A stretch of DNA of 34,650 nt, taken from contig NZ_BLAE01000099.1 in assembly GCF_009687865.1 (NCBI RefSeq), forward strand, positions 1-34,650, read 5' to 3'. A program made the position numbers and the translations under genes. Shown here piece by piece: positions 6,636-34,650 of this stretch. The stretch is from Acrocarpospora macrocephala (GTDB taxonomy: Bacteria; Actinomycetota; Actinomycetes; Streptosporangiales; Streptosporangiaceae). The notes beneath the pieces are model-generated. The model ran no database searches, was not told the DNA's origin, and was given only the letters and a program-made list of their open reading frames with translations. How positions within the stretch are numbered: position 1 is the first letter of the stretch; each line of letters starts with the position of its first letter.

Positions 6636-6636
6636 C

Positions 6637-16039: not shown

Positions 16040-16058
16040 CGTCCGGAGGAGGTGCGCC

Positions 16059-18701: not shown

Positions 18702-18736
18702 GACTGCTCCCTGGGGGGTGTGATCGGGCGTTGTGA

Positions 18737-18755
18737 CGAACTGGATAGTTCATTA
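18737..18755 (+). promoter_or_regulatory. 19-bp regulator motif, copy 1 (MHS side)
   Basis: CGAACTGGATAGTTCATTA contains the inverted repeat GAACT-GGAT-AGTTC and lies 36 bases upstream of the MHS transporter start. The same motif, CGAAC-N2-G-N2-AGTT-N2-TTA, recurs on the opposite strand at 18868-18886, one copy per divergent promoter. The TetR gene at 21406 is the likely regulator. Confidence 0.6.
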
Positions 18756-18867
18756 ACAGGTTCGATTCCTGCATGGTGCAGGCGACGTCTCCTAGTGTCA
18801 AGAGGCGAAATTTGTGGTTGAACTGGACATATGGCGAGCTCTTGGATGAGGCGGGGTAGGCGGGTTA

Positions 18868-18886
18868 TAACTAACTCACTGGTTCG
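18868..18886 (-). promoter_or_regulatory. 19-bp regulator motif, copy 2 (dehydrogenase side)
   Basis: Read on the - strand this is CGAACCAGTGAGTTAGTTA, sharing 13 of 19 positions with copy 1 in the blocks CGAAC, G, AGTT and TTA. It ends 21 bases before the ATG of the shikimate dehydrogenase gene, an ideal position for repression of the operon. Confidence 0.6.
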
Positions 18887-18907
18887 TACATTTGGAAGGC
18901 TGGACTG

Positions 18908-19750: not shown

Positions 19751-19751
19751 G

Positions 19752-21395
19752 ATGCGGACGTCCATCGCGACCGTGTCGGTCGGCGGCACTCTGGCGGAGA
19801 AGCTCACCGCGATAGCCGCCGCCGGATTCGACGGCGTTGAGATCTTCGAGAACGATCTGCTCGCGTCGCCGATGTCGCCCGCCGAGGTCCGGGTGCGGGC
19901 CGCCGATCTCGGCTTGAGCATCGATCTCTACCAGCCGTTCCGCGACTTCGAAGCCATGCCGGCCGACCTCCTGGCCGCGAATCTCCGCCGGGCCGACCAC
20001 AAGTTCCGCCTCATGCGCCAGCTCGGGGCCGATCTGCTGCTGGTCTGCTCGAACGTGTCGCCGGCCGCGATCGGTTCCGACGAGCTGGCCGCCGAGCAAT
20101 TGCGGTCGCTGGCGTCCCTGGCCGCCGAGTACGGCATCCGGATCGCGTACGAGGCCCTGGCCTGGGGGCGCCACGTCGACGACTACCTGCACGCCTGGCG
20201 CATCGTGCACCTGGCCGACCACCCGAACCTGGGCACCTGCCTGGATAGCTTCCACATCTTGTCCCGCGGCTTCGACCCGATCGGCATCGAGGCCATCCCC
20301 GGCGAAAAGATCTTCTTCGTGCAGCTCGCGGACGCGCCGATACTCGCCATGGACGTCCTGCAGTGGAGCAGGCACTACCGTTGCTTCCCTGGTCAGGGCA
20401 TGCTCGACGTGCGCGGCCTGGTCGGTCACGTGCTCCGCGCCGGGTATTCGGGGCCGCTGTCGCTGGAGGTCTTCAACGACGTGTTCCGGCAGGCCGACGC
20501 GGGCCGTACCGCCCTGGACGGGATGCGATCACTGATCGCCCTGGGGCTTCCAGAACCGGTCGTCCCGACCGGGTTGGCCTTCGCTGAGCTGGCCGTCGCG
20601 GATCCGGCCCGGCTGGGCGAGTTGCTGGCCGCGCTCGGTTTCGTACGCACGGACGCTCAGCGCTGGGAACAAGGCGCCGCCCGTATCGTCCTGCGCACGG
20701 CGTCCGGAGAACCCGAGCTCGCGGCGATCGGCCTGGAAAGCCCCGACCCGGATGCCGCCCTGACGCGCGCCCGAACGCTGCGGGCCACCGTCCTCCCCGG
20801 CGAACACGCCATCGCCGCCCCCGACGGAACCCAGATCGTCTTCTGCCCTCCGACCACCGTCCCGCGTTCCGGGCATATCACCCATATCGATCACGTCGCC
20901 CTCACCCAGCCCTGGCACCACTTCGACGAGGCCGCCCTCTTCTACCGCAGCGTCCTCGCCCTGTGCCCGCAACCGAGCCTCGAGGTCCCCGACCCATACG
21001 GCCTGCTCCGCAGCCGCGCCATGAGCGCCGGCCCGGTGCGCATGGTCCTCAACATCACCCAGGTCCAGGGCATCCCCACCCAGCACATCGCCCTGGCCTG
21101 CGACGACCTCGTCGCCACCGCCCGCGCCCTGCCCCCCGACCTGCTCCTGGAGATCCCCGCCAACTACCACGACGACCTCGACGCCCGCTACGACCTGCCA
21201 TTCGACCATCGCGCCCTCGGCATCATGTACGACCGCGACGACCACGGCGAATTCCTGCACCTCTACACGATCACCATCGGCCGGGTCTTCTTCGAACTCG
21301 TCCAGCGCGTCGGCGGCTACCAGGGCTACGGCGCCGTCAACGCCCCCGTCCGCCTGGCCGTCCAGCACTCCAGGGGACCGATGACGCCTCAGTAG
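19752..21395 (+). CDS. 3-dehydroshikimate dehydratase with HPPD-like C-terminal domain (QsuB-like)
   Basis: A 547-residue two-domain protein. Residues 1-270 form a sugar-phosphate isomerase/epimerase-like TIM barrel (metal-site segments such as IRIAYEALAWG and TCLDSFHIL). Residues about 275-530 form vicinal-oxygen-chelate modules resembling 4-hydroxyphenylpyruvate dioxygenase, with candidate metal ligands in HIDHVAL, TQHIAL and FFELVQR. This is the QsuB architecture, in which the barrel converts 3-dehydroshikimate to protocatechuate. The HPPD-like domain's role is less clear. It starts one base after the dehydrogenase stop, so the two are co-transcribed. No protocatechuate ring-cleavage genes are in the window. 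Confidence 0.88.
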   Translation: MRTSIATVSVGGTLAEKLTAIAAAGFDGVEIFENDLLASPMSPAEVRVRAADLGLSIDLYQPFRDFEAMPADLLAANLRRADHKFRLMRQLGADLLLVCSNVSPAAIGSDELAAEQLRSLASLAAEYGIRIAYEALAWGRHVDDYLHAWRIVHLADHPNLGTCLDSFHILSRGFDPIGIEAIPGEKIFFVQLADAPILAMDVLQWSRHYRCFPGQGMLDVRGLVGHVLRAGYSGPLSLEVFNDVFRQADAGRTALDGMRSLIALGLPEPVVPTGLAFAELAVADPARLGELLAALGFVRTDAQRWEQGAARIVLRTASGEPELAAIGLESPDPDAALTRARTLRATVLPGEHAIAAPDGTQIVFCPPTTVPRSGHITHIDHVALTQPWHHFDEAALFYRSVLALCPQPSLEVPDPYGLLRSRAMSAGPVRMVLNITQVQGIPTQHIALACDDLVATARALPPDLLLEIPANYHDDLDARYDLPFDHRALGIMYDRDDHGEFLHLYTITIGRVFFELVQRVGGYQGYGAVNAPVRLAVQHSRGPMTPQ

Positions 21396-21405
21396 GATGG
21401 GCGCC

Positions 21406-22059
21406 ATGACCTCCCCGTCCGGCACTCGCCCCAGCGCGGCCCGCCAACGCGACGCCGACCGGACCCGCGCCGAAATCCTGGAGGTCGCCCAGCGGGTCTT
21501 CGCGCGCGACGGATACGCCGGAGCCCGGGTAGACGAGATCGCCGATCTGACCCGCACCACCAAACGCATGATCTACTACTACTTCGGCAGCAAGGAGCAG
21601 CTCTACATCGCGGTCCTGGAAAAGGCGTACACCGAAGTCCGCACGGTCGAACGAACCGTGGACGTGGCCCACCTGGCCCCCACCGCGGCCATCCGCACCC
21701 TCGCCGAACTCACCTTCGACCACCATGACGCCCACCGCGAGTTCATCAAACTGGTCGCCATCGAGAACATTCACCGAGGCGAGCACATCCGTAAATCCGA
21801 GGTCCTCGCCAACCTCGGCACCCCGGTCCTGGACCTCATCACCCGCATCCTGGAAGCGGGCCGCGTCAGCGGCGAATTCGACACCGAGGCCGACGCCATC
21901 GACGTCCACATGATGATCAGCGCCTTCTGCGTCTTCCGCGTCGCCAACCAGCACACCTTCGGCGCCCTGTTCGGCCGCGAGATGACCGCACCCCAGCATC
22001 GCGCCAAGCAGCGCCGAATGCTCGGAGAGATGATCGTGTCCTACCTACGCGGCAGCTGA
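21406..22059 (+). CDS. TetR-family regulator of the shikimate/quinate locus
   Basis: A 217-residue TetR protein. The helix-turn-helix is RAEILEVAQRVFARDGYAGARVDEIADLTRTTKRMIYYYFGSKEQL split over residues about 20-65, with a C-terminal domain of the TetR_C-type seen with aromatic catabolism genes (FDHHDAHREFIKLVAIEN). The ATG at 21406 follows AGGATGG; the ATG at 21397 is an alternative. It lies 10 bases after the dehydratase gene and is likely cotranscribed. It probably acts at the paired 19-bp motifs in the divergent promoter region. Confidence 0.87.
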   Translation: MTSPSGTRPSAARQRDADRTRAEILEVAQRVFARDGYAGARVDEIADLTRTTKRMIYYYFGSKEQLYIAVLEKAYTEVRTVERTVDVAHLAPTAAIRTLAELTFDHHDAHREFIKLVAIENIHRGEHIRKSEVLANLGTPVLDLITRILEAGRVSGEFDTEADAIDVHMMISAFCVFRVANQHTFGALFGREMTAPQHRAKQRRMLGEMIVSYLRGS

Positions 22060-22180
22060 TCCGTAGACCACGTCGGCAGGGACAACAACCTGCATGCGAT
22101 CCCGAGGTGATGGTGGTTCGGCGGTTGAGGGTTTGCGGAAGTATCGTGTGGATCGCCGAAGCAATAGGGGAGGGAGCGGG

Positions 22181-24235
22181 ATGCCGGATGTTCGCCCGCT
22201 CCGGCCGGGTGATCCTGAGCGGATCGGTGACTACCGGCTTGTCGGTGTGCTCGGCTCCGGTGGGCAGGGAGTGGTCTATCGCGGGGTCGGCGAGACCGGG
22301 CGCGAGGTCGCCGTCAAACTGATCCACAGTCACCTGAGCCGCGATGACGACGTGCGGAAGGGTTTCCTGCGTGAGGTGGAGGCGGCGCGCAGGGTGGGTG
22401 CGGTCCACACGGCCGCGGTGCTGGATGTCGGGATGCTGGACGAGCGTCCGTACATCGTGAGCGAGTACGTCGCCGGGGACACGCTGCAGGCGTTCGTACA
22501 GTCCTCGGGCCCGCGCACGGGCGGCGCGCTGGACCGGCTCGCGATCTCCACCCTGGCGGCGCTGGTCGCCATCCACGAGGCCGGGATCGTGCACCGCGAC
22601 TTCAAACCGGCCAATGTCCTGGTAGGACCGGAAGGTCCGATCGTCATTGACTTCGGCATCGCCAAGGCGTTCGACTCCACGACGCAGGCCTCGGGGCCGA
22701 TCGGCACGCCCACCTACATGTCGCCGGAGCAGTTCAGGGGCGAGCGCGTCGGACCCGCGTCCGACCTGTTCAGCTGGGCGGGCACGATGGTGTACGCCGC
22801 CACCGGCCGCCAGCCCTTCCCGGGGGACACGGTCCCCGCCATCGTGAACGGCGTCCTGAGCGGCTCGCCCGATCTCTCCGGCATGCCCCCTCATCTGGTG
22901 GACTCGATCCAGGCGTGCCTGGCCAAGGATCCCGCCGCCCGGCCGGTCGCGGCCGACCTGCTACGACAGCTGATCAGGCGCACAGGGCCGTCAGCCGGGC
23001 CGTTCCCGGAGCCTTCACCGGCGCCGGAAGAGGAGGTCTCGCCCAGGCAGGTCAGCCGGCGGGTCCTGATCGGCGGCGCCGTCGCGGCCGCCGCGGCGGC
23101 GGTCTCCGCCTTCGCCGTTCTCCGGCCAGGAAGTGGTCTCTTCTCCCCGGGCGGTGAACAGGTCAATCCGCCAGGAAGCACCAAACAGGGCAGCGATTCC
23201 TCCCTGTCCACATCCTCATCCGCTTCCCCCAGCTCCTCGCCGACCCCGGCCGCCTCGCCCGAGCCCTTCGGCGCGCAGGTCAAGGACCCCGTCACCCTGA
23301 CCGCGGGCAGCGGTGCGCCCACCGCCCTCGCCGCCGCCGGGGCCACCGTCGTCTGCGGTACGGCCAAGGGAACGGCACTGTTATGGGACATGAACACGGC
23401 CACGGCGGTCACCGAACTCGGCGACGGCGGAGGCTCGGTGACCTCGGTGGCGTCCGGCGTCGTCAGCGGGACGCCGGTGACGGCCTCCGGCCACGCCGAC
23501 GGCGGGATGCGGCTGTGGACCCAGACGGGTGCCGAACATGCCTCGCACCGGGCCAGCGACCCCATCATCGCCGTCTCGATCGGCGACCGGGCGATCGCGG
23601 TCTCGCAGAAGTACGACGGCATGACCGACCTCTACAGCGTCGTACGGCTCTGGGACATCGCCACCGGCAAGCAGATCGGCGCGACGATCACCGAACACTT
23701 CCAGGGTGTCAGAGGCCTGACATTCGGCAGACTCGGCCAGAACGACGTGCTCATCACAGGAGACGGCGGCGAACGAATCCGGGTCTGGAACCTGTCGACG
23801 GGAAAGCTGACACGCTCGTTCCGCACCGGCGAGATCGGCGGCATCGAACTGCTGGCCTGCGGCCAGGTGAACGGCAAACCCGTCCTCGTCTCCACCCATC
23901 TGGACGCCACCCTGCGCGTCTATGACCTGGCCACCGGCAAGCGCAAGAAACAGTGGACCTTCAGCGACCGGAGCCCCGACGACCGGGGCACCGCCGCCCT
24001 CACCGCGGGCCAACTCGGCGATGTGCCCATCGCGGTCGTCGCCCACAACCCGGCAGGCTCCGACATCACCGTCCGAATCTGGAACCTCGACGACGGCGAG
24101 ACCATCGGAACCCTGGGTTCCGGCCCCAACGGCGCGACCAGCACACTGACACTGACCGAGTTCGCCGGCCGCCCCATCGTCGTGACGGCCGGCGAGGACA
24201 GAATCCTCCGAACCTGGAGCCTCGGCCGAACATAA
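22181..24235 (+). CDS. Transmembrane Ser/Thr protein kinase with C-terminal beta-propeller
   Basis: A 684-residue protein. The Hanks-type kinase domain spans residues about 18-275: glycine loop GSGGQG (25-30), VAVK lysine, HRD (138-140) in the catalytic loop HRDFKPANV, DFG (157) and the GTPTYMSPEQF activation segment. A membrane helix follows at about 291-313, then a Ser/Pro linker to about 365, then WD40/propeller-like repeats to the end, with recurrent LWD/VWN and ATGK turns. The propeller should lie outside the cell as a ligand-binding or scaffold domain, in place of PASTA repeats. The ATG follows GGGGAGGGAG. All catalytic motifs are intact. The signal and substrate are unknown. Confidence 0.92.
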   Translation: MPDVRPLRPGDPERIGDYRLVGVLGSGGQGVVYRGVGETGREVAVKLIHSHLSRDDDVRKGFLREVEAARRVGAVHTAAVLDVGMLDERPYIVSEYVAGDTLQAFVQSSGPRTGGALDRLAISTLAALVAIHEAGIVHRDFKPANVLVGPEGPIVIDFGIAKAFDSTTQASGPIGTPTYMSPEQFRGERVGPASDLFSWAGTMVYAATGRQPFPGDTVPAIVNGVLSGSPDLSGMPPHLVDSIQACLAKDPAARPVAADLLRQLIRRTGPSAGPFPEPSPAPEEEVSPRQVSRRVLIGGAVAAAAAAVSAFAVLRPGSGLFSPGGEQVNPPGSTKQGSDSSLSTSSSASPSSSPTPAASPEPFGAQVKDPVTLTAGSGAPTALAAAGATVVCGTAKGTALLWDMNTATAVTELGDGGGSVTSVASGVVSGTPVTASGHADGGMRLWTQTGAEHASHRASDPIIAVSIGDRAIAVSQKYDGMTDLYSVVRLWDIATGKQIGATITEHFQGVRGLTFGRLGQNDVLITGDGGERIRVWNLSTGKLTRSFRTGEIGGIELLACGQVNGKPVLVSTHLDATLRVYDLATGKRKKQWTFSDRSPDDRGTAALTAGQLGDVPIAVVAHNPAGSDITVRIWNLDDGETIGTLGSGPNGATSTLTLTEFAGRPIVVTAGEDRILRTWSLGRT

Positions 24236-24287
24236 CGGACACTTTCCGCTTTTCCCGGCGCCCGGTGGTCCTAGCCGCCGTGATCGC

Positions 24288-24494
24288 GACAAATCGGTAT
24301 TTCGGCTGGACGATGGCGCGGGTGGTCCCACCGACGTAGACCAGGTCGCCCAGTACGAATTGATCGGTCGCCCTCAGCGTAGGAAGACCTCGTCGAGGTG
24401 CCATGTCTTCGCGCCCATGTTCCGGGACCATAGACAGTCCGTACGACAATTTCTGGATCAGATGAAAGGCAACCGGGCCGAGTGGGAGCGCTAG
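24288..24494 (+). pseudogene. Possible gene remnant in 24236-24490
   Basis: Between the kinase gene and the next clear gene the + strand holds an open frame with no start codon, ending TAG 24492-24494. The peptide is plausible: DKSVFRLDDGAGGPTDVDQ, then FRDHRQSVRQFLDQ and MKGNRAEWER at the end. The frame is open from inside the kinase gene and composition alone could explain it. I see no terminator or repeat here. It may be the C-terminus of a decayed gene; confidence is low. Confidence 0.25.
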
Positions 24495-24679
24495 GCCCTT
24501 GCCCGAGTTTGGCGAGCGGTGACGAGCGACGCCCCGACCAGCGCGGTCAGCAGGCCCCAGTAGGCGAATGAAGCCCAGCTCTGGTACGAGCGCTCCTCCA
24601 CGAGGTAGACCAAGGAATGCTCGATGATCGCCGCATCGCTGACCTCCTCGGCTGCCAGCGCCCGGGTCACCGCGGCCAT
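24491..24679 (-). CDS. Small membrane protein (62 aa)
   Basis: A 62-residue product: an amphipathic acidic N-half (MAAVTRALAAEEVSDAAIIE) and one membrane helix (about 36-54, SFAYWGLLTALVGASLV) followed by a positive tail TARQTRARA. The frame remains open for about 27 codons upstream of the ATG, with protein-like sequence but no start, so this may be the end of a longer, decayed gene. There is no strong ribosome site. No family is recognised. The 24680-24876 stretch upstream holds nothing else I can support. Confidence 0.4.
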   Translation of the reverse strand: MAAVTRALAAEEVSDAAIIEHSLVYLVEERSYQSWASFAYWGLLTALVGASLVTARQTRARA

Positions 24680-24876
24680 ATCCGGGTCTTTCGTATCATC
24701 GCCCGCCTTCCGTAGCTTGGACGGTCGCCCTCCTTCACCGATGGACGGAAAACTGTTTCATCGGCCACCGCCGCCAAGGAGCTCGGTCTGGCCTGAGGCC
24801 CGCGGAGGTCGTAGGCAACAGCGCCGTGACATCTAGTGGGGTGACCACCTGGGCGGATACGCGACGTTGGCCGTCG

Positions 24877-25527
24877 TCATGGCTGGTTGTTGAGGAAGGT
24901 GAGGACGGCGAGTACGCGGCGGTGGCCGCTGTCGGTGGGGGGTAGGCCGAGTTTGGCGAAGATGTTGCCGATGTGTTTGTGTACCGCGTTGTCGGTGATC
25001 ACCAGGTGCTCGCCGATGGCGGTGTTGCCGAGACCTTGTGCCATCAGGGCGAGGACTTCGCGTTCACGCCTGGTGAGCGTCTGGATGGTGTTCTTTCCCT
25101 GGCTGGTGGTCATGAGCTGGGCGATGACCTCGGGGTCCATGACCATGCCGCCCTTGGCGACCCGGTGCAGGGCGTCGACGAACTCGCTCACCCGGCTCAC
25201 CCGGTCTTTGAGCAGGTAACCAACCGCTCCGTGACCGTCGGAAAGCAGTTCCTTCGCATACACCTGCTCGACGTACTGCGACAGGACCAGAACCGGCAGA
25301 CCAGGCCGGGCGCGGCGAATCTCGAGCGCGGCGTGGATGCCCTCGTCGCGGAAGGACGGGGGGAGCCGGACATCGACGATCGTGACATCTGGCCGGTGGC
25401 GCTGGACCGCCGCGATGAATCCCGGCCCGTCGGTGGCGACTTCGGCGACCTCGAAGCCTTTGGCGGCAAGCAGGTACTCCATTCCCGCCGAAAGCAGGAT
25501 GTTGTCCTCAGCGATCACAACCCGCAC
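24877..25527 (-). CDS. NarL/LuxR-family response regulator
   Basis: A 216-residue response regulator. The receiver domain has acidic residues in VVIAEDN, the phospho-acceptor aspartate in VTIVDVRLPP and the conserved lysine in GYLLKDRV. A LuxR-type helix-turn-helix follows at residues about 148-205 (LTRREREVLALMAQGLGNTAIGEHLVITDNAVHKHIGNIFAKLGL). Its start lies inside the 3' end of the histidine-kinase gene (13-base overlap), so the pair is co-expressed. Target genes cannot be read from this window. Confidence 0.93.
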   Translation of the reverse strand: MRVVIAEDNILLSAGMEYLLAAKGFEVAEVATDGPGFIAAVQRHRPDVTIVDVRLPPSFRDEGIHAALEIRRARPGLPVLVLSQYVEQVYAKELLSDGHGAVGYLLKDRVSRVSEFVDALHRVAKGGMVMDPEVIAQLMTTSQGKNTIQTLTRREREVLALMAQGLGNTAIGEHLVITDNAVHKHIGNIFAKLGLPPTDSGHRRVLAVLTFLNNQP

Positions 25528-26756
25528 GGCAGCTCCACCGTGATGGAGGTCGGGCCGCCCACCGGACTGGTGACGAGTACGGTTCCGTCGAGCGCCGCGG
25601 CGCGGCGCCGGATTCCGATCACGCCGGTCCCGCGTGCCTCCGCCACGCCGCCTATCCCGTCGTCGGTGACCTCGATCAGCAGACTGTCACCGGCACGGGT
25701 GAGCCGCACGAGCACCCTGGTCGCGCAACTGTGCTTGGCCGCGTTGGCGAGCGTCTCGGCGACGATGAAGTAGGCGGCGGCCTCCACCGCGGCGGGCAAC
25801 CTGCCAACCTCGCCGAGGTCGACCTCGGCGGGCACCCCCGATCGCGCGCCGAGCGCCGCGAGCGCGCCGGCCAGCCCTCGATCGGCGAGGATCGGCGGAT
25901 ACATCGTACGGATCACATCACGCAGCTCCGACATGGCCTCCTCTGCCCCCTCGTGGGCATGTCGCAGCAGCTCCGCCAGTGGCTCGGAGCCCTCGGGGAG
26001 CGTCTCTCTGGCCATGCCCAACTGCATGGCGATGGCCACCAGCCGGGCCTGCGTGCCGTCGTGCAGATCCCGCTCGATGCGGCGCAGCTCGGCCCCGTGG
26101 GCATCCAGCACGCCCGCCCGGCTCTCGCTCAGCTCGCCGACACGCTCGGCGAGCTGGTCGGCGTCCGAAGGCTCGAGCGCGGCCAGACAGGTGCGCGCGT
26201 GGAAGCGCGCCAATTTCGGCACCGCCCAGAACGCCACCAGACCCGAGATCACGATCTGCCCGCCCCCCAGGGCCAGTGCCCAGCTCCAGCTGGTCACGGG
26301 GATGGCCGTCAGCAGCCGGAGCGGCGCGTCGGCTGGAAACAGCCACCACAGGGACGCCGCGACGACGGTGAACACGGCGGTGCCGATGCAGGCCAGCGCG
26401 GCAAGGCCGGCGGGGATGCCGGTGGCGATATGCCGCCACACCCATCCGATGTCTCGTCGGGTCTCAGGGTCGTCCAGCACCTGACGCCATTGCGCGCGAA
26501 TGCCCTGGCTCAGCGACACATATCTGGAGGACACCGGCACGCCGAGCAACCCGGCGGCACGGCGGCGATTCCACTCCGCCCACCGCCGCAGGGCGACCAG
26601 AGCCCGCGGGAAAATCACCAGGCCGGCGCCGGCCAGGCCAGTGGACAGTGCCGCCGCTGCGAGGAGCGGCGGCACCAACATCGTCGCGATGGCACCCGGC
26701 AGGCCGAGCAACAAGTACCTGCCACCGCGCCACACATCTCTCCATCGTTCCCGCAT
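25515..26756 (-). CDS. NarL-type sensor histidine kinase (HisKA_3)
   Basis: A 413-residue membrane kinase. Hydrophobic segments lie at about 13-50 and 108-185 and surround a short 'putative sensor' region. They are followed by a linker, then the HisKA_3 dimerisation helix with the phospho-histidine in IERDLHDGTQARLVA (near residue 228) and a HATPase_c domain with the N-box ETLANAAKHS, G1 VTDDGIGG and G2 GTGVIGIRRR. It autophosphorylates and passes phosphate to the co-encoded NarL-type regulator. The stimulus is unknown; the small extracytoplasmic loops suggest an intramembrane or envelope signal. Confidence 0.92.
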   Translation of the reverse strand: MRERWRDVWRGGRYLLLGLPGAIATMLVPPLLAAAALSTGLAGAGLVIFPRALVALRRWAEWNRRRAAGLLGVPVSSRYVSLSQGIRAQWRQVLDDPETRRDIGWVWRHIATGIPAGLAALACIGTAVFTVVAASLWWLFPADAPLRLLTAIPVTSWSWALALGGGQIVISGLVAFWAVPKLARFHARTCLAALEPSDADQLAERVGELSESRAGVLDAHGAELRRIERDLHDGTQARLVAIAMQLGMARETLPEGSEPLAELLRHAHEGAEEAMSELRDVIRTMYPPILADRGLAGALAALGARSGVPAEVDLGEVGRLPAAVEAAAYFIVAETLANAAKHSCATRVLVRLTRAGDSLLIEVTDDGIGGVAEARGTGVIGIRRRAAALDGTVLVTSPVGGPTSITVELPCGL

Positions 26757-27094
26757 GGCGTCCAGTCTGCGAGCCGGGCCACGCGCCCGGCACTACAGCA
26801 GACTCCCCTTTCTTCCTCCGCTCCTGGCCGAGCCGGCGATGCCACGCAGTGCCGTACTAGCGCGTGGCAGTGCCGACAGGCCCTGACGTCGGTTAACCGT
26901 GAGCCCTTAACGGCATGTGCATACCGCGATGGTGTCGAATGTGATGACGCATTACGTCAAGAATGCCCGGGGCGCGGTCTCATCGGCACCGAATTTCGCT
27001 CGGTGGGGTTGGATTGAGCGGGTCAGCGGTACGCGGAATGGGTAAAGTCCTTTTCCGCACCGCCATGTTGGTCTCTCTATCTCCCCGGAGTGCG
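26757..27094. other. Divergent intergenic region before the helicase gene
   Basis: This 338-base region lies between the kinase gene (leftward) and the helicase gene (rightward). It contains a perfect short inverted repeat TGACG-CATTA-CGTCA at 26945-26959 and in-frame upstream starts (such as the ATG at 27038) for the helicase gene, without strong ribosome sites. I see no separate gene. Promoter hexamers are not clear. Confidence 0.4.
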
Positions 27095-30000
27095 ATGACA
27101 GGCTCGCGGCACAAACCCTTCCCCGCCGAAGAACTCCTGCGGGCCGTACAACTGGAAATCGTCGCGGAACTGCGGAGTGATGGGGACGGGGAGAAGCTTT
27201 CCCTGACCGCGGGCCGCAGAATCGGCGGCACGGGGGAAACCCGGGAATACCTCTTCTCCTGCCGGGCTTGGCAGCCGGCGTTCGCCGGGGACAAGCTGCT
27301 GGTGCGATCATCGCGCTCCCGCGAGGCGTGGACTCCCGCGGAAACGTCCCGGATGCCCGACGGCAAGATCAAGGTCCGTACCGCAGCGGACCTGAACGGT
27401 GAGAACGCCCAGCTACGCCAGGACGAAACGGCCGGCTGGGCCACCGTGGCCGAGCGGCTGGAGTCCGCCGGCCGCGCCGACGGACTGGTCAACCTCACCA
27501 CGGCGGGATGGATTGTCGGCCAGGGACGGCCGCGCATCGGACACTGCGCCACCCCGCAGGACTACATCCGCGAGTACGGCTCACGTCAGCTCAACCCCGG
27601 ACAGCGCCGAGCGATCGAACAGGCCCTGGGCAGCGAGCTGACCTTCATCTGGGGACCGCCGGGAACCGGCAAGACCGATGTCGTGAGCTGCGTCGTCGAA
27701 GGCTGTTACCGGCAGGGGATGCGGGTGCTGTTCGTGGCCCCGACCAAGGTCGCGGTGGATCAGGCGCTTGAGCGCATCTGTGACCTGCTGTCCGGCGAGG
27801 AGGCCTTCGACGCGGGTCTGGTCCAGCGGGCCGGTGAGATCGAGCTCGCGTCGCTGGCGGGGAAGTTCGGCGAGCAGATCGACCCGGCCAAGATCGCCCT
27901 GCGGCTTTCCGCCTCGCTCACGGCCCAGCTCGACCAGGCGCGAACCAGCCTGGAGGCCGCGCGCCGGGACCTGGCCCGCCATGACGAGGCCGAGAACCTG
28001 CGACGCGAGCTGACGGACCTGTGCACGCGGCGTGACGCGGCGGCCCGAGACGCGATCCTGCTTCACGAGCGGATCCAGGCCGCCCAAGCCACGCTGGCGA
28101 AAACCGAATACGAGATCCGGGAGATCGGCACGCCGTCCGGGCTCTTCGCCAAGAAGAAGCAGGCCAAACTCGATCATCTTGGCCGTCTTCACTGGGAGCT
28201 GAGCAGCGGACTGGCCGCTCTTCAGCAGCAGCTGGACGGGGCTCTCCGGGCTCGGCAGCAAAACGGGGACGAGGCTGACCGACTCCAGCCGAAGGTGACG
28301 GCCGCCTTCGATCGGCTGCGCGGCATTCCCGGCCGTGGCCCGCTGCGGGAGGCCGCCGACCGGTTGCAGGAGCAGGTCACCGCGTTGGAGAGCGAACTCC
28401 AGAAGATCGCCGAGGTGGTTCGCCGGAATTGCCAGGTGATGGGGACAACCGTGGCCAAGGCCGTACAGTCTCGCAGGCTGCTGGATTCGGTCGATGTCGT
28501 GATCATCGATGAGGCCGGGATGGTGAACACCCCGTCCGCCTGGTGCGCGGCCGGGCTCGCCACCCGCAGAGTCGTCGTCGCGGGCGACTTCCGGCAACTC
28601 CCCGCGGTGACCAAGTCCCCCGGAGATCGCAAAGCCTCCGCCCAGGACCGCGAGCACGCCCGCCTCTGGATGGACCGCGACCCGTTCACCACAGCCGGAC
28701 TCGTGGACCAGGCCGGTACGGCTCGCCGCGACGACCCGCGGATGGTGTGCCTGGACACCCAGTACCGCATGCGCCCGGCGATCTGCGAGATCGTCAACAC
28801 GGTCGCCTACCCCGACTCGCCGCTCCGCACCGGCCGCGGCGACGCCGGTCGGCTTCCCGCGTCAGCACTGCTCGACGGGCCGCTGATCCTCGTCGACACC
28901 ACGCCGCGCCGCCTGCCCAACGAGAACCGCGCCAACGGGCACAAGACGAACACCGTCCACGAAGCCGTCATCCACGAGCTCATCCGCGGGCTGCAATTCG
29001 ATCAGGTGCTGCCCGCCCGCAAGTCGACCGGCACCCGGCCGACCGACCTGATGGCCGTGATCTCCCCGTACAAGGATCAGGTGAGAGCGCTTCGCGACAG
29101 CCTGACCTACCGGTTCGGCGCGGAATACGACGGGCTCGTCGACACGGTCCACCGGTTCCAGGGCAGCCAGCGGCCGCTCGTGATCATCGACACGGTGGCC
29201 GGGGCCGGGGACAAGGTCGGCTACTTCTACGACCAGGTGGGATTGTCCTCGTCCACCTGCCGCCTGCTCAACGTGGCACTCAGCCGGGCCCAGGACCATC
29301 TGATCGTCGTGGCCGATGTGCGGTTCCTGCACGCCAAGCTCAACCAGAGCAGCGAGGCCGCACGCATGCTGGCGCACCTGGAACGCCATGCCCGGCTGCT
29401 GTCCGTGGACGACCTCGTGCCCTTCCGCAGCGCCGCCGACCTGGCTGGACTGCCGGAGGAGGAACTGGCCCGCCCCGCTTTCTTTCCCGCCGACGAAGTG
29501 CCCCGCGCCGTCGCGTGGGACATCGCCCGCGCGCAGCGCGGGATCGACATCTACTGCGCCTTCCTCGACCCGAACCCCGTGCGGCAGTGGCTCCGGCAGC
29601 TCAGCCCGCGCATCCAGGCCGGGGTGCACGTCACCATCCACACCCGCGACCAGTCCGACGACCTGCGCAGGAACGGACTCGTTCAGGAACTCGAGGCGGC
29701 GGGCTGCAAGATCTCCACGCGTGAACGTATGCACGAGAAGGTCCTCATCATCGATGAGACGGTGCTGTGGCACGGTTCCCTGAACCTGCTGGCGAACATC
29801 GGCCCCACCGATCTGATGATGCGCATCACCGACCCGTCCTCCTGCCGGCGCGTCCGCACCATCGTCGACCGCGCCCGGATGGAACGCCCCGCGCGGCCGC
29901 CGTCCCAAGGACACGCCGAACACGGCACCGTGATCAACGGCCGCTTGTACGTCAGCGTTTCCTTCCACGACAAGGATGACTTCAAGCAGGCGGCCCGAGC

Positions 30001-30100
30001 GGCCGGAATGCCGGCGTCGTGGGACAAGGACCGAAAGTTGTGGCACGTGGACGCGACCATCCCCCGCGAGAGGATCGCGCGCTGGCTCCCACCGTCATGA
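27095..30100 (+). CDS. SF1 helicase with coiled-coil insert, PLD module and DUF5710-like tail (type II Mokosh-like)
   Basis: A 1001-residue protein. The UPF1/Dna2-like (COG1112-type) SF1 helicase core shows Walker A GPPGTGKT (near residue 187), the motif Ia region APTKVAVDQAL, Walker B/II DEAG (472), motif III GDFRQLPA, LDTQYRMRP, motif V VHRFQGSQ and motif VI NVALSRAQDHL (about 725). Residues about 270-445, between motifs Ia and II, are a long coiled coil. A PLD-like domain at about 800-930 carries one HKD motif, HEKVLIID...GSLN (near 880). The last 50 residues (RLYVSVSFHDKDDFKQA, then W-D-KDRKLWHV) resemble DUF5710. Helicase plus PLD in one chain is the reported layout of MkoC of type II Mokosh anti-phage systems. 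The ATG follows GGAG; earlier in-frame starts exist. All key motifs are intact. Defence is inferred from architecture only. Confidence 0.88.
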   Translation: MTGSRHKPFPAEELLRAVQLEIVAELRSDGDGEKLSLTAGRRIGGTGETREYLFSCRAWQPAFAGDKLLVRSSRSREAWTPAETSRMPDGKIKVRTAADLNGENAQLRQDETAGWATVAERLESAGRADGLVNLTTAGWIVGQGRPRIGHCATPQDYIREYGSRQLNPGQRRAIEQALGSELTFIWGPPGTGKTDVVSCVVEGCYRQGMRVLFVAPTKVAVDQALERICDLLSGEEAFDAGLVQRAGEIELASLAGKFGEQIDPAKIALRLSASLTAQLDQARTSLEAARRDLARHDEAENLRRELTDLCTRRDAAARDAILLHERIQAAQATLAKTEYEIREIGTPSGLFAKKKQAKLDHLGRLHWELSSGLAALQQQLDGALRARQQNGDEADRLQPKVTAAFDRLRGIPGRGPLREAADRLQEQVTALESELQKIAEVVRRNCQVMGTTVAKAVQSRRLLDSVDVVIIDEAGMVNTPSAWCAAGLATRRVVVAGDFRQLPAVTKSPGDRKASAQDREHARLWMDRDPFTTAGLVDQAGTARRDDPRMVCLDTQYRMRPAICEIVNTVAYPDSPLRTGRGDAGRLPASALLDGPLILVDTTPRRLPNENRANGHKTNTVHEAVIHELIRGLQFDQVLPARKSTGTRPTDLMAVISPYKDQVRALRDSLTYRFGAEYDGLVDTVHRFQGSQRPLVIIDTVAGAGDKVGYFYDQVGLSSSTCRLLNVALSRAQDHLIVVADVRFLHAKLNQSSEAARMLAHLERHARLLSVDDLVPFRSAADLAGLPEEELARPAFFPADEVPRAVAWDIARAQRGIDIYCAFLDPNPVRQWLRQLSPRIQAGVHVTIHTRDQSDDLRRNGLVQELEAAGCKISTRERMHEKVLIIDETVLWHGSLNLLANIGPTDLMMRITDPSSCRRVRTIVDRARMERPARPPSQGHAEHGTVINGRLYVSVSFHDKDDFKQAARAAGMPASWDKDRKLWHVDATIPRERIARWLPPS

Positions 30101-30236
30101 CGTCCTGCGCACGATCTGGACAAGCGGTCTGCCAGCGGTCCATGCCATCACCTTAATTCGCGACCGGAATCTCACGGTTGCCGGCGGATGCCTGTTGCAG
30201 GTTTGTTGCAGGATTCGCACTTTCCATTGACGCCTT

Positions 30237-30280
30237 TTGACAGCCGCCGTTATGGTCCGGCTAAGTGGAAAGCGCTTTCC
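30237..30280 (+). promoter_or_regulatory. Pectate lyase promoter with LacI-type palindrome
   Basis: A TTGACA -35 (30237-30242) is followed after 18 bases by CTAAGT as a possible -10. Immediately downstream is the perfect 14-bp palindrome GGAAAGCGCTTTCC (30267-30280), the LacI/CebR type seen before actinobacterial polysaccharide-degradation genes. It sits where it would block transcription. A 200-base leader with nothing else recognisable separates it from the start at 30481. The cognate regulator is not obviously in the window: the operators at 3502-3541 differ. Confidence 0.7.
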
Positions 30281-30480
30281 GTCACTCTTTTCGGCGTACG
30301 GCTCTCGGCGTCCCCCTTCGCCGTGGGGCCAGCACGCCGCATCACTTCGCCGGTCTCTACGCCGCCCCGCGGATTTCGTATGCCAGCACTTCTACGGCAT
30401 AGCCATCCGGCCGCAGGCCCGCAGCGCCGACCGGACAGAGAAGAACGCACCCAGCATTCGAAGACGAAGGTGAGAAGAGG

Positions 30481-32049
30481 ATGAGACGAGCAGTCGCATT
30501 GCGACTTCAGGCGGCGCTGGCCACGGCGGCCATTGTGGCCGCGGTAGGTGTGGCCTTACCGGCACTCCAGGCGTCGGCAGCGGTCGGCAGCGCCACGGGC
30601 TACGCGAGCGCCAACGGCGGGACCACCGGCGGTGCGGGCGGACAGACGGTGCGGGCCACCACGGGGACCGCGATCCATGCGGCCCTGTGCGGTCGGGCCA
30701 GCAGCAGCACCCCGATCACCATCGAGGTCGAGGGGACCATCAATCACGGCAACACCACCAAGGTGTCGGGCGCGAGCTGCAACACCGCCGCCGGCCTGAT
30801 CGAGCTCAAGCAGATCAGCAACGTCACGATCATCGGGGTCGGCAACGGGGCCGTCTTCGACCAGCTGGGCATTCACATCCGCGAGGCCAGGAACATCATC
30901 CTCCAGAACGTGACCATCCGGAACGTCAAGAAGTCGGGTTCGCCTACGTCCAACGGTGGTGACGCCATCGGCATGGAGAGCGGCGTCCGCAATATCTGGG
31001 TCGATCACGTCACCCTGGAGGCCTCGGGTGGCGAGTCGGAGGGCTTCGACGGCCTCTTCGACATGAAGGACGACACCCAGTACGTGACCCTGTCCTACAG
31101 CATCCTGCGCAACTCCGGCCGCGGTGGGCTCATCGGGTCCAGCGAGAGCGACCGCTCGAACAGCTTCATCACGTTCCACCACAACCTGTACGAGAACATC
31201 GACTCCCGTACGCCCCTGCTGCGGGGCGGCATCGCTCACATCTACAACAACTCCTACGTGAGCCTCCACGAGTCCGGGATCAACTCCCGGGCCGGGGCTC
31301 GCGCCAAGGTGGAGAACAACTACTTCAAGGACTCCAAGGACGTCCTGGGCACCTTCTACACCAGCGAGGCCGGCTACTGGCAGGTCAGCGGCAACATCTT
31401 CGACAACGTGACCTGGTCAAGCCCCGGCAGTGAGAACAACCCCGCCGGCCCCAACCCGCAGTCCAACACCACCGTCAGCGTCCCGTACTCCTACGGCCTC
31501 GACGGGGCCAGCTGCGTGCCGAACATCGTCCGCCAGACCGCGGGGGCCAACAAGGGTCTGCAGGTGTCGAACGGCAGCTGCTCGCCGCAGACACCGAGCC
31601 CAACGCCGTCAGCCAGCCCCTCACCGTCAGCCAGCCCTTCTCCGTCAGCTAGTCCTTCTCCGTCAACCAGCCCTCCACCCAGCGGAACCAACCTCAGCAT
31701 CGGGGCCGGCTCCGACGGCTCCAGCAAGGCTGACGGGACGAGCTACGGCAACGTGCGGGACGGCGACATGAGCACCTACTGGTCGCCGGCCGGCTCGACC
31801 GGTGACATCTCGATCAAGTGGAGTTCCGCCAAGACCGTGTCCAGGATCATCATCCGTGAGGCGTCAGGCTCCGCGGGCAGCATCGGATCCTGGCAGGTCA
31901 TCAACGGCGGCACTGGCGCCGTCCTGAAATCCGGCAGTGGGGCGGGCGCCATCACCTTCGCCTCGACCTCGCTGAGCAAGATCACCTTCAGGATCGCCAG
32001 CTCGACCGGCACGCCGAAGGTCGCCGAGTTCGAGACCTACGCCGCGTAG
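30481..32049 (+). CDS. Secreted pectate lyase (PL1) with discoidin-like domain
   Basis: A 522-residue secreted enzyme. The signal peptide (residues 1-34, cleavage near ASA-AVGS) is followed by a PL1 parallel beta-helix to about residue 365, with the family motif WVDHVTL, calcium-site aspartates in DGLFDMKDD and the catalytic arginine segment SRTPLLRGG (R-x-P-x-x-R). A Pro/Ser/Thr linker follows (about 372-400), then an F5/8 type C (discoidin/CBM32-like) domain of about 115 residues. It cleaves polygalacturonate by Ca-dependent beta-elimination outside the cell, and the C-terminal domain probably binds plant wall glycan. The start follows GAGAAGAGG. A strong hairpin terminator lies 20 bases after the stop. 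Confidence 0.94.
   Translation: MRRAVALRLQAALATAAIVAAVGVALPALQASAAVGSATGYASANGGTTGGAGGQTVRATTGTAIHAALCGRASSSTPITIEVEGTINHGNTTKVSGASCNTAAGLIELKQISNVTIIGVGNGAVFDQLGIHIREARNIILQNVTIRNVKKSGSPTSNGGDAIGMESGVRNIWVDHVTLEASGGESEGFDGLFDMKDDTQYVTLSYSILRNSGRGGLIGSSESDRSNSFITFHHNLYENIDSRTPLLRGGIAHIYNNSYVSLHESGINSRAGARAKVENNYFKDSKDVLGTFYTSEAGYWQVSGNIFDNVTWSSPGSENNPAGPNPQSNTTVSVPYSYGLDGASCVPNIVRQTAGANKGLQVSNGSCSPQTPSPTPSASPSPSASPSPSASPSPSTSPPPSGTNLSIGAGSDGSSKADGTSYGNVRDGDMSTYWSPAGSTGDISIKWSSAKTVSRIIIREASGSAGSIGSWQVINGGTGAVLKSGSGAGAITFASTSLSKITFRIASSTGTPKVAEFETYAA
31606..31677 (+). repeat. Four 18-bp tandem repeats encoding the PSASPS linker
   Basis: Units at 31606, 31624, 31642 and 31660 follow the pattern CCGTCAGCCAGCCCTTCT with few differences and encode the Pro-Ser-Ala-Ser-Pro-Ser hinge of the pectate lyase. 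Such repeats readily change copy number and linker length. Confidence 0.85.
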
Positions 32050-32068
32050 CGGATCTGTCCCGCCGGAA

Positions 32069-32095
32069 CGGGGCCCGTCAGACTGACGGGCCCCG
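32069..32095. terminator. 12-bp hairpin terminator after pectate lyase
   Basis: CGGGGCCCGTCA (32069-32080) and TGACGGGCCCCG (32084-32095) pair perfectly around a 3-base loop. There is no T-run, as usual in this GC range. Confidence 0.8.
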
Positions 32096-32195
32096 CACGG
32101 TAAGCCTCGGCCGAACCTGAATGGAGCCCATCGGCCGGCCTCAACGCTGATCATTCACGCCGACGCGGCGTCCACGGATCGGATGAGTCGGTGAA

Positions 32196-32212
32196 ATACC
32201 GTACACGGGTAT
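32196..32212. promoter_or_regulatory. Possible CsoR operator upstream of csoR
   Basis: ATACCGTACACGGGTAT has matching ATACC/GGTAT ends around a 7-base centre. It is a weaker relative of the TACCCC-GGGGTA sites further on and lies 36 bases before the csoR start. Autoregulation is plausible. Confidence 0.5.
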
Positions 32213-32248
32213 GCTGCTGAGCATTGTGTGGGAACGGGAGGACGACAG

Positions 32249-32530
32249 ATGGCCGGTTACTCGCACAACAAGCAGGACCACGTGCGGCGGCTTCGGCGGG
32301 TCGAGGGGCAGGTCCGCGGGCTGCAGCGGATGGTCGAGGATGACAAGTACTGCATTGACGTCCTCACGCAGGTGTCGGCGGCCACGAGCGCTCTGCAGTC
32401 CTTCGCCTTGTCCCTGCTCGAAGAACATCTGGCGCACTGTGTCGCTGAAGCCGCCCAGAAGGGCGGAGCCGAAGCCGACGCCAAGGTCAAGGAAGCCGCT
32501 GAAGCCATCGCGCGGCTCGTCCGTTCCTGA
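32249..32530 (+). CDS. csoR: CsoR-type copper-sensing repressor
   Basis: A 93-residue all-helical DUF156-family repressor. The Cu(I) ligands align exactly with CsoR: C35 (in DKYCIDVL), H60 (EEHL) and C64 (AHCV), spaced as C36-H61-C65 in the M. tuberculosis protein. The family's HxxR...V-E-GQVRG segment is also present. Cu(I) binding releases the protein from DNA. The ATG at 32249 follows GGGAGG; an upstream GTG (32228) is less likely. It is convergent with the SHOCT gene and adjacent to copZ and a copA remnant, with several CsoR-type palindromes between them. Confidence 0.92.
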   Translation: MAGYSHNKQDHVRRLRRVEGQVRGLQRMVEDDKYCIDVLTQVSAATSALQSFALSLLEEHLAHCVAEAAQKGGAEADAKVKEAAEAIARLVRS

Positions 32531-32549
32531 GTTGCCATCAACGCCCGTC

Positions 32550-32825
32550 CTATCCGGTCGTGCCCCGCGCTGAAGGCGCGGCGCCGCCCAGCACCTGCAG
32601 GCGCTGGGTGTACTCGTCCTCGTCGATCTCTCCGCGAGCGAACCGGTCGGCGAGCACCTGTTGCGGCGTCGGTGTCTGGGCGGCCACCGCGTCCGGCTGG
32701 CCGCCGCCACCCAGGGACCGGACCAGCAACACGATGCCGGTGATAATCAGGCCCCAGAAGAGCAGGCCGCTGACAGCCATGGGCACCATGCCCCAGCCGC
32801 CCATGCCGTTGCCCCAGTACATCAT
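32550..32825 (-). CDS. SHOCT-domain small membrane protein
   Basis: A 91-residue protein. The Met/Gly/Trp-rich start MMYWGNGMGGWGMV precedes one membrane helix (about 15-40), a Gly/Ala linker and a C-terminal SHOCT domain (VLADRFARGEIDEDEYTQRLQVL). The methionine-rich head beside copper genes suggests a copper-exposed face, but no function is proven. The ATG pair at 32825/32822 follows GGAGGAG. A perfect CsoR-type palindrome 109 bases upstream suggests copper induction. Confidence 0.87.
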   Translation of the reverse strand: MMYWGNGMGGWGMVPMAVSGLLFWGLIITGIVLLVRSLGGGGQPDAVAAQTPTPQQVLADRFARGEIDEDEYTQRLQVLGGAAPSARGTTG

Positions 32826-32933
32826 CGTGATCTCCTCCATCCACCGGCCGGACTTGCGAGATGCCTCCACCGTGCTCTCGACTGCCCGGGCCGGGTATGG
32901 GCGCACGTCACGTGCGGCAGGGTCGAAGGTCCC

Positions 32934-32948
32934 TACCCCCTGGGGGTA
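32934..32948. promoter_or_regulatory. CsoR-type operator (SHOCT gene)
   Basis: TACCCCC-T-GGGGGTA is a perfect 7+1+7 palindrome of the kind bound by actinobacterial CsoR. It lies between the copA remnant stop and the SHOCT gene start, so the SHOCT gene has its own copper-responsive promoter. Confidence 0.78.
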
Positions 32949-32990
32949 CGAGCGTGGGAGGTCTTCGGCCCCCTGCCGCGCTGCCCGCCT

Positions 32991-33244
32991 TCACCCGGAC
33001 CACGTTGCGCGGAAGCGGCGCAGGCGCAGGCTGTTGCTGACGACGAAGACCGAGGAGAACGCCATGGCGGCGCCGGCGATCATCGGGTTGAGCAGGCCGA
33101 GCGCCGCCAGCGGGAGGGCCGCCACGTTGTAGGCGAAGGCCCAGAACAGGTTGCCCTTGATCGTGCGGAGGGTCCGGCGGGAGAGCCGGATCGCGTCGGC
33201 CGCCACCCGCAGGTCGCCGCGCCCAGCTTGGCGGCGGTGTTCAT
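32991..33244 (-). pseudogene. copA: Remnant of copper-exporting P-type ATPase (copA)
   Basis: Codons read leftward from about 33220 encode the exact C-terminal end of CopA-type ATPases: [18 protein letters not shown], then [19 protein letters not shown], then the last helix [19 protein letters not shown], stop at 32991. Everything expected before it (metal-binding domain, DKTGT, GDGxND) is missing. At the other side an ATG at 33244 overlaps the copZ stop (ATGA) and encodes only MNTAAKLGA before running into the remnant out of frame. A deletion of about 2 kb that joined the start and the end of copA explains this. No functional export pump remains at this locus. Confidence 0.83.
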
Positions 33245-33450
33245 GACGGATCCACTTCGTATCCGGCCTCTTGGACAGCGGCCTTGATCTGCTCACTGTC
33301 GATCGGGTCATCGCTCTCCACGGTCAGGAGCCCGCTCGCCAGGTCGACCTCCACCGCGGTGATACCAGAGATCTCCCCGACCTCTTCCTTGACGGAGCTG
33401 ACACAGTGACCGCAGGTCATTCCCTTGACGGTGTAGGTGGCGGTGGTCAT
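33241..33450 (-). CDS. copZ: CopZ-like copper chaperone
   Basis: A 69-residue heavy-metal-associated domain with the Cu(I) site GMTCGHC (C13, C16), a single ferredoxin-like fold and no membrane segment. It carries Cu(I) to CopA or CsoR in the cytoplasm. The ATG at 33450 is ten bases after AGGAGGA; the in-frame ATG at 33459 is too close to it. The TGA overlaps the ATG of the deleted copA by four bases, which shows the former copZ-copA operon. Two CsoR-type palindromes lie 44-96 bases upstream. Confidence 0.92.
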
Positions 33451-33493
33451 GGCGATCATTCCTCCTGCTGGGTTGATCAAGAAAGGCTTCGAT

Positions 33494-33546
33494 TACCCCC
33501 ATGGGGTATGCCAACGCAGGGAAACGTAGCATACCCCCCGGGGGTT
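33494..33546. promoter_or_regulatory. Two CsoR-type operators upstream of copZ
   Basis: TACCCCCATGGGGTA (33494-33508) and TACCCCCCGGGGGTT (33532-33546) are both C-run/G-run palindromes with TA ends, 38 bp apart. They flank the probable copZ promoter. The double site suggests tighter control than at the SHOCT gene. Confidence 0.8.
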
Positions 33547-33678
33547 TGCACAAGATTGCCCGGGGGTTGCGGCCTTCCACCCGTTCTGTGGACAGGTCAC
33601 AGCAGAGGGAACGGGATGTCCGCGCAGGCGGTTAGAGGCGCGGAGGACGCAAGAGATGCGCCCACATGGATGTCTTCG

Positions 33679-34650
33679 TCAGGGGCGGACGGCGCCGAGG
33701 AAGCGGCCTCGCCAGTAGCCGTCAATGGTGACCACCTTGACGACGTCGCCGGTCTGCGGAGAGTGGACCATCTTCCCGTCACCCGCGTAGATGCCCATGT
33801 GTCCCAATCCCCGGCTGAACAGCAGATCGCCCGGTTGCAGTGCGTCCAAGGGGACTCGGCGGCCGGCACCCCAGGCCCACTGCTCGTAGGTGGTGCGGGG
33901 CAGCTGGACTCCCGCGGCTCTCCAGGAAGCCTGGGAGAAGCCCGAGCAGTCGTAGGAACCGGGGCCTGTGGCGCCGTATCTGTACGGCTTGCCGACCTGG
34001 GCGAAGGCGAACTCAAGGGCCACGCGCGCGTCCCCGGAGGCGGGCCCGGTGTAGGCGATTCCCGTACTGTTCGGGTCGCCGACATTGAAGGCACCCAGCT
34101 GGCGCAGGAGTTTTGTCTGCTCTCTTACCAGCCGATCAGCCTTCTTCTTCTCCTTGCCCACCTTGTCGCGTTCCGTGTCCGCCTCAGCGAGCACGACCTT
34201 GGCCTCGTCGCGCTGGGCGCGCAACTCCACGGTGGTCGCCTCGAAGGAGCGCAGCGCTTCCGTCTGGGTTCGGGCCATCTGGTCGATGGAGGTCATCCGG
34301 CTCAGCATCGCGTCAGCGTTGCCGGAGTCGAGGAATCCCTGCATGCCGGACAACCCGCCGAACTGGTAGCTGCCGACCGCCAGCGAGACGAGACCCTCGC
34401 GGAGGGCGTCGAGTCGTGCGCGCTTGCGTTCCAGCGCGGTGTTGAGACCCTGGTACTTCTTCCTGGCCTTCTGGTACGACTCGGTGGCTTGGTTGTACTT
34501 CTCGACCACCTCGTCGGCCTGCTCGTTGAGCTTCACCAACTTGGCACGGGCTTGTGCGATGGTCGGCCGGGGTTCCGCGGTCGCGCCGCCTTGAGCGACC
34601 AGTAACGCGAGTAGGAGAAGACCCACGGTCACTGGTATTCGCCCAAGTCT
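33679..34650 (-). CDS. NlpC/P60 peptidoglycan endopeptidase with coiled coil (5' end at or beyond window edge)
   Basis: At least 317 residues. A signal-peptide core (VGLLLLALLVAQGGATA) is followed by a long coiled coil (about 30-185, rich in K, E, R, Q and A), a short linker and a C-terminal NlpC/P60 domain with catalytic Cys in YDCSGF, His in LGHMGIYAG and the third polar residue in VHSPQTGD. This is the RipA/CwlO-like layout of secreted D,L-endopeptidases that cut peptide stems during growth or division, the coiled coil serving in auto-inhibition or partner binding. A GTG at 34632 could start it, but the frame is open to the edge and the positively charged signal start (RLGRIP) lies before it, so the true start is probably outside. 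Confidence 0.88.
   Translation of the reverse strand, partial: RLGRIPVTVGLLLLALLVAQGGATAEPRPTIAQARAKLVKLNEQADEVVEKYNQATESYQKARKKYQGLNTALERKRARLDALREGLVSLAVGSYQFGGLSGMQGFLDSGNADAMLSRMTSIDQMARTQTEALRSFEATTVELRAQRDEAKVVLAEADTERDKVGKEKKKADRLVREQTKLLRQLGAFNVGDPNSTGIAYTGPASGDARVALEFAFAQVGKPYRYGATGPGSYDCSGFSQASWRAAGVQLPRTTYEQWAWGAGRRVPLDALQPGDLLFSRGLGHMGIYAGDGKMVHSPQTGDVVKVVTIDGYWRGRFLGAVRP

Follow-up and report, generated by a model that had tools for sequence, protein, structure and literature searches.

A Helicase–Phospholipase D Protein of Acrocarpospora macrocephala with a Probable Defense Function outside the MkoC Branch of Mokosh

Introduction

The window considered here is a stretch of 34,650 nucleotides from Acrocarpospora macrocephala (Streptosporangiaceae; contig NZ_BLAE01000099.1, positions 1 to 34,650). 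It contains a gene (27095–30100, forward strand) encoding a protein of 1001 aa, P0001, in which a helicase is followed by a phospholipase D (PLD) nuclease domain and a DUF5710 tail. The locus raises the question of whether such a gene is part of a known anti-phage system, a system of its own or a housekeeping enzyme. The Mokosh system was reportedly first described by Millman et al. in 2022. According to an excerpted description, type II Mokosh is a single gene with an N-terminal COG1112-type helicase and a C-terminal PLD domain (PMC11672841). The gene of the window was found to follow this plan: one gene, with the helicase first and the PLD domain after it. Sequence comparison and structure prediction suggest, with a probability of about 0.57, that its product is a self-contained anti-phage (or anti-plasmid) helicase-nuclease that would work like type II Mokosh and belongs to a clade of its own outside MkoC. 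Besides the domains, motifs and predicted folds themselves, the points in favor of this reading are the patchy presence of the gene, an empty site in a congener, the defense genes near its relatives and the Mokosh proteins as its best PADLOC matches.

Domain Organization and Predicted Structure

GGAG lies four bases before the ATG start codon at 27095, and the stop codon is at 30098–30100. An alternative, longer open reading frame (ORF) begins at 26963; since the proteins of several relatives start at the position corresponding to 27095, this is the likely start. The frame and coordinates given by the first-pass annotation were confirmed, and the superfamily 1 (SF1) helicase motifs and the PLD motifs that it listed were all found at the expected places.

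The SF1 UPF1-like helicase core comprises residues 160–775 (27572–29419; all domains are on the forward strand) and includes the motifs GPPGTGKT (residues 187–194), DEAG (472–475), GDFRQLPA (497–504) and NVALSRAQDHL (726–736). The AAA_11 and AAA_12 matches (109.7 and 88.2 bits, respectively), which we take to correspond to COG1112, were both above the Pfam curated cut-offs. A coiled-coil insert (residues 264–445, 27884–28429) lies between the Walker A motif and motif II, with predicted helices at 264–344, 352–407 and 414–445; the coiled coil noted earlier at this place is borne out by these helices, with a length of 182 and not about 175 residues. In the AlphaFold model, the core is preceded by a beta-rich domain (residues 34–109, 27194–27421), probably the OB/1B-type barrel of UPF1-like helicases.

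The PLD domain (residues 793–927, 29471–29875) was detected as PLDc_2 with 34.4 bits against a Pfam cut-off of 27. Its HKD motif is intact and, as noted before, is the only one in the protein: HEKVLIID occupies residues 880–887 (29732–29755) and GSLN residues 894–897 (29774–29785), together spanning 29732–29785. The C-terminal stretch previously described as DUF5710-like (residues 950–999, 29942–30091) proved to be a DUF5710 match with 40.0 bits against a cut-off of 26.5 (E 3.2e-10). The scores of all four Pfam matches are far higher than chance would give. No kinase or NERD part was found among the Pfam matches of the protein up to E 1.

The full-length AlphaFold model, built with 24 aligned sequences, had a mean predicted local distance difference test value (pLDDT) of 87.0 and a predicted template modeling score (pTM) of 0.69. 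It shows the beta-rich N-terminal part, the helicase core, the long helices of the insert, the PLD domain and a small tail domain. The C-terminal 257 residues modeled alone gave a pLDDT of 87.1. Foldseek placed SETX, IGHMBP2 and UPF1 at the top for the full model, with Dna2 lower in the list. For the C-terminal model, the best matches included mouse Zucchini (4ggk), Salmonella Nuc (1byr) and H. pylori NucT (6ehi), with TM-scores on the target of 0.58–0.68, and likewise a phospholipase D (7e0m); the predicted structure is that of a true PLD fold. Judged by its motifs and its predicted structure, the protein combines a motor, a coiled-coil insert, an intact PLD domain with one HKD motif and a small C-terminal module.

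The helicase fold is also what would be expected of a housekeeping UPF1/IGHMBP2-like enzyme of RNA or DNA surveillance, and TIGR00376 (IGHMBP2 family) was the top NCBIfam match. However, its score of 132.8 bits remained below the cut-off of 348.9 bits, and a housekeeping IGHMBP2 identity was therefore found unlikely. The patchy presence of the gene, the empty site in the congener and the lack of a constant neighborhood, all described below, speak against a housekeeping role as well, which we consider quite improbable. Kinship with UPF1/IGHMBP2 helicases, regarded by the first-pass annotation as a sign against defense, was thus seen in the fold but not in the TIGR00376 score.

Relationship to Mokosh

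The best PADLOC matches of the protein were Mokosh proteins, namely MkoA (6.4e-60) and MkoC (4.4e-44). The MkoA model matched the helicase part with 201.5 bits, the best PADLOC score. On the MkoC profile (1136 positions), the protein scored 148.9 bits, the best stretch being 660–1103, whereas the MkoC of Yoonia scored 1229.6 bits over 1–1134. Three relatives scanned with the PADLOC profiles behaved like the window protein. By hhalign, the PLD domain of the window clade matched that of MkoC (96.5%, E 7e-10), a similarity that general PLD kinship may explain.

Two helicase trees were built from a set of 42 sequences (rows). The 32-row tree lacks W_L042, D_L059, Cy2_L070, own_L002, MkoAstk_Microvirga and two archaeal rows, which did not match the motif patterns, and L057b, P24_L061 and P24_L062, which were omitted by choice. 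For the 26-row set, also used for the approximately unbiased (AU) tests, 8 clade members out of 18 were retained, of which W_L042 failed to match the patterns, so that 7 remained; D_L059 and the row from Microvirga failed to match as well, and own_L002, Cy2_L070 and L057b were omitted by choice. The trees were built without L055, near-identical to L056, and without L068, which has no PLD domain.

In the 26-row tree with archaeal outgroups, the window clade and MkoC formed separate branches, each with a support of 100/100. Both trees split off the window clade, MkoC, MkoA and a set of helicases with a degenerate PLD region, each by a strongly supported branch. Full MkoC membership is not supported, given the partial profile match and the separate branches, and the safe conclusion from the sequence comparisons is a position of the window protein outside MkoC. 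The earlier assignment to type II Mokosh holds for the domain order and fails for the profile and the branching, so that "actinobacterial member" of that type is not a supported description. The alternative offered with it, a sister system, may still apply.

A broader relationship is a separate matter. The protein could belong to a divergent branch of type II Mokosh: a single helicase-PLD fusion in a common ancestor would have diverged strongly in actinobacteria and acquired DUF5710. The shared domain order, the PLD profile match and the PADLOC match to MkoC are consistent with this, and the best tree set the window clade with its sisters beside MkoC and two other helicases (L061 and L062), apart from MkoA, at only 80/57. 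However, the nearest kin of the two groups differ: among the rows tested, the window clade had its nearest helicases in the degenerate-PLD rows together with one cyanobacterial row (100/98); MkoC joined L061 and L062 (99/96) in the 26-row tree. L062 has no HKD motif, and its end is of another kind, Vsr/DUF559-like as judged by eye; L061 ends with its contig just past motif VI, any tail lying beyond the data. A single origin of the fusion would therefore require that the L062 line has lost the PLD domain, which is possible.

The AU test rejected a group of the window clade, its sisters and MkoC without L061 and L062 (p 0.017), with the caveat of the long branches flagged in the helicase trees. 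With L061 and L062 included, the grouping was neither shown nor rejected (80/57). A union of the clade and its sisters with MkoA was not rejected (p 0.12; three MkoA rows only) and, with wider groups, MkoC with MkoA gave p 0.057. The values for the clade with MkoC (p 2.8e-5) and with MkoA (p 8.2e-5) were set aside, since the sisters of the clade had been omitted from these groups and rejection was inevitable. Taking into account the differing nearest kin, the rejection at p 0.017 and the MkoC profile match, limited to 660–1103 of 1136 positions and to 149 bits where a genuine MkoC reaches 1230, a divergent branch of type II Mokosh seems rather unlikely.

Degenerate-PLD Sister Clade

The sister clade (L053, L054, L056, L057 and L058) resembles the window protein in its helicase and differs from it in the lost HKD residues, in a C-terminus with a CxxC...CxxC pattern instead of DUF5710 and in the DISARM-type genes found near most of its members. 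Comparison of the sister-clade C-terminus with the PLD domain by hhalign gave a probability of 1.3% (E 0.04), and the observed score was reached by 3 of 100 column shuffles; the degenerate region likely descends from a PLD domain, a descent only weakly supported by the profile comparison. DrmD and DrmMI genes were found beside the sister gene in L056, and in L053, L054 and L058 homologues of both are located less than 5 kb away from it. In L055, a short contig whose region is near-identical to that of L056, only a DrmD homologue was found at this distance.

Two further arrangements were observed at these loci. In L053 (10715–16206), two adjoining genes beside the degenerate-PLD helicase match PADLOC LeoBC and LeoA (545 and 367 bits, respectively) and are near a McrBC pair resembling that of L031. 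In L027, a single stretch contains a TIR gene, a complete gene of the window type and a C-terminal fragment of a degenerate-PLD helicase (3537–4430, reverse strand).

Distribution and Conservation

Matches at 1e-30 were found in 23 of 200 genomes of the family: 16 full-length (the window's own included), a partial one in G195 and 6 belonging to a more distant type. In a sample of the phylum, 3 of 396 genomes matched, namely the window's own, G222 (full-length) and G537 (distant). The four other genomes of the genus gave no match at 1e-30. One more full-length relative was found in Streptosporangium amethystogenes.

GPPGTGKT, GDFRQLPA, HRFQGSQ, HxKxxxxD and GSLN are invariant in all 18 full-length sequences, the window protein included; a partial sequence, L051, was excluded from these counts. 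DEAG is present in 16 of the 18, with DEVG and DEAA in one each, and the final residue of NVALSRAQDHL varies in one. The DUF5710-type tail was found in 17 of the 18; the window protein and its relatives in G007 and G038 passed the Pfam cut-off, and the other 14 were recognized by alignment only. The remaining protein, that of L050, ends in a CxxC...CxxC stretch instead of DUF5710. In the same bacterial family, DUF5710 was also observed joined to an HNH-nuclease-like stretch (judged by eye) in ORFs of 293–394 residues (L035, L036 and L037).

The search of plasmid and phage records gave no match covering 80% of the query, and the plasmids contained no homologue at 1e-40. Among viral contigs, scanned with two peptide patterns only, no candidate was confirmed by C-terminal alignment.

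Genomic Context

The gene is located in a variable block of approximately 5.9 kb (24247–30155) that also contains a response regulator gene (24877–25527, reverse strand) and a histidine kinase gene (25515–26756, reverse strand; ORF list and NCBIfam). The block is missing at the same site in the congener G127, where stretches matching window positions 13513–24246 (94.6% identity) and 30156–32096 (91.0%) adjoin with a four-base overlap. Because homology fades over tens of bases at this junction, the exact ends of the block are uncertain. The two ends of the block share no direct repeat of at least 16 bases, and no search was made for shorter duplications or integrases. Close relatives differ in whether they carry the block, which would be expected of defense cargo but does not prove defense. 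The histidine kinase and response regulator were considered as partners of the system and rejected, the pair not being a constant neighbor in the relatives. Near the left edge of the block, a 27-residue open stretch (24377–24457, reverse strand) ending in GAKTWHLDEVFLR, presumably similar to part of an IS6-type transposase, may be an insertion-sequence remnant.

No neighbor was constant across the 19 loci compared, so that a conserved non-defense context was not found, and recognized defense genes were located near the gene in 9 of them. These include McrBC (L042 and L031), N6 methylases with DUF6119 (L030), GmrSD (L049), TIR (L027), a DrmD/BrxH-like helicase (L047) and DrmA/DrmB-like genes (L060). 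In L041 and L052, an operon of a YprA-type helicase, an SNF2 helicase and a DrmMI/type IIG-like methylase is divergent from the gene. In an excerpted source, this gene order is that of ARMADA type I (PMC12458937). The L052 operon begins with a gene (1888–8214, reverse strand) for a 2108-residue fusion of a Ser/Thr kinase with a YprA/DruE-type helicase containing an MZB domain; together with the SNF2 helicase and DrmMI-like methylase genes that follow, it forms a kinase-headed ARMADA-like operon.

The operons in L041 and L052, the DrmA/DrmB-like genes in L060 and the DISARM-type genes often found near the sister gene (L053, L054, L055, L056 and L058) are what one would see if the protein were an accessory effector of larger systems such as ARMADA or DISARM and did not stand alone. 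However, 15 of the 19 stretches, that of the window among them, had no homologue of the YprA, SNF2 or DrmA queries, and the gene therefore does not depend on such an operon; an accessory role appears unlikely.

For comparison, control stretches were chosen manually in 12 of the genomes, at round coordinates. Using PADLOC at 1e-25, 79 family matches were obtained among 73 neighbor proteins (a set with one miscalled ORF, from L052) against 1 among 80 control proteins. Since one protein can match many families, proteins are the fairer unit. Neighbors scanned singly were picked by size and position, not exhaustively.

In the fairer count, at least 7 of the 73 neighbor proteins, identified from scans of single neighbors, matched against 2 of the 80 control proteins (Fisher p 0.087). 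A tblastn search with ten defense proteins found matches in 9 of the 19 test stretches and in 0 of 20 control stretches, a comparison that is biased, as nine of the ten queries originated in the test loci and most test stretches were longer than the controls. Against a defense role, the same ten queries gave no match in window positions 20095–34650, and none of the four neighbors of the gene (22094–26756 and 30481–32049) reached the cut-off of a defense family in NCBIfam. These two negatives agree with the earlier description of the gene as solitary, and the clustering of homologues with defense genes, which the first-pass annotation had proposed to check, was found in the 9 loci subject to the bias just mentioned. 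A UPF1-like helicase-nuclease could also serve RNA decay or DNA repair, the DNA nuclease-helicase Dna2 being among the fold matches. On balance, the link of the window-type gene with defense genes is suggestive, not proven.

Proposed Mechanism and Origin

If the protein is a self-contained defense helicase-nuclease, its UPF1-like motor would load on single-stranded nucleic acid or RNA accumulating during infection, translocate and feed the strand to the PLD domain. Nuc-type enzymes act as homodimers in which two HKD motifs are paired. By analogy, the PLD domain would cut once the HKD motifs of two subunits have paired. The most tentative step concerns the tail: DUF5710, or CxxC...CxxC in one relative, might help to hold or recognize the substrate, since the two are exchanged for one another and DUF5710 also occurs beside other nuclease-like stretches.

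As to origin, the family may be an unrecognized single-gene defense system of actinobacteria that arose independently on the plan of type II Mokosh, with a substrate-reading tail that can be exchanged, either DUF5710 or CxxC...CxxC, and a sister subfamily whose dead PLD domain was recruited near DISARM. We regard this as a doubtful proposal, because the wider tree tests are compatible with a single origin. Among the matches listed in literature searches on Mokosh, DUF5710 and UPF1-like/PLD helicases, no description of this family was recognized. The UPF1-like motor and Zucchini-like PLD of MkoA/MkoB have been likened, in an excerpted source, to the eukaryotic piRNA pathway (PMC11291487). If the independent origin is true, the coupling of such a motor with such a nuclease arose more than once in bacterial defense. 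The active and degenerate-PLD subfamilies of one bacterial family would then offer a natural comparison of a motor with and without a nuclease, and the swapped tails would allow a direct test of substrate choice.

Comparison with Known Systems

The window gene resembles MkoC in consisting of one gene with a COG1112-type helicase first and a PLD nuclease last, and the PLD domains are related by profile. It differs in having its own helicase clade and only a partial profile match. In addition, the six plasmid MkoC proteins aligned end soon after the PLD domain, whereas the window protein continues with its DUF5710 tail. Type I Mokosh (MkoA and MkoB), in which a helicase protein with a kinase or NERD part is accompanied by a separate PLD gene, differs in that the window protein has no such part among its Pfam matches, its PLD domain is fused and there is no separate MkoB. 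An arrangement similar to type I with a phosphatase was observed on a Microvirga plasmid (L075, 2213–8014): a helicase annotated as a Ser/Thr kinase, a hypothetical gene and a PP2C phosphatase.

In CoCoNuT types II and III, CnuH is described in an excerpted source as a UPF1-like helicase that carries a coiled-coil insert behind its Walker A motif and is coupled or fused to a nuclease (PMC11090510). The window protein, set beside CnuH by that description, is likewise a UPF1-like helicase with a coiled-coil insert. The difference from CoCoNuT is that window positions 20095–34650 have no McrB/McrC homologue (tblastn with the L042 queries at 1e-8), McrBC being found only beside L042 and L031 among the neighbors scanned. 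Since CnuH, as far as that description goes, also joins a UPF1-like helicase, an insert and a coupled nuclease, the motor–insert–nuclease plan would recur across defense systems. The window protein is thus of a familiar kind, a helicase-nuclease of probable defense function, on a branch half seen by the Mokosh models.

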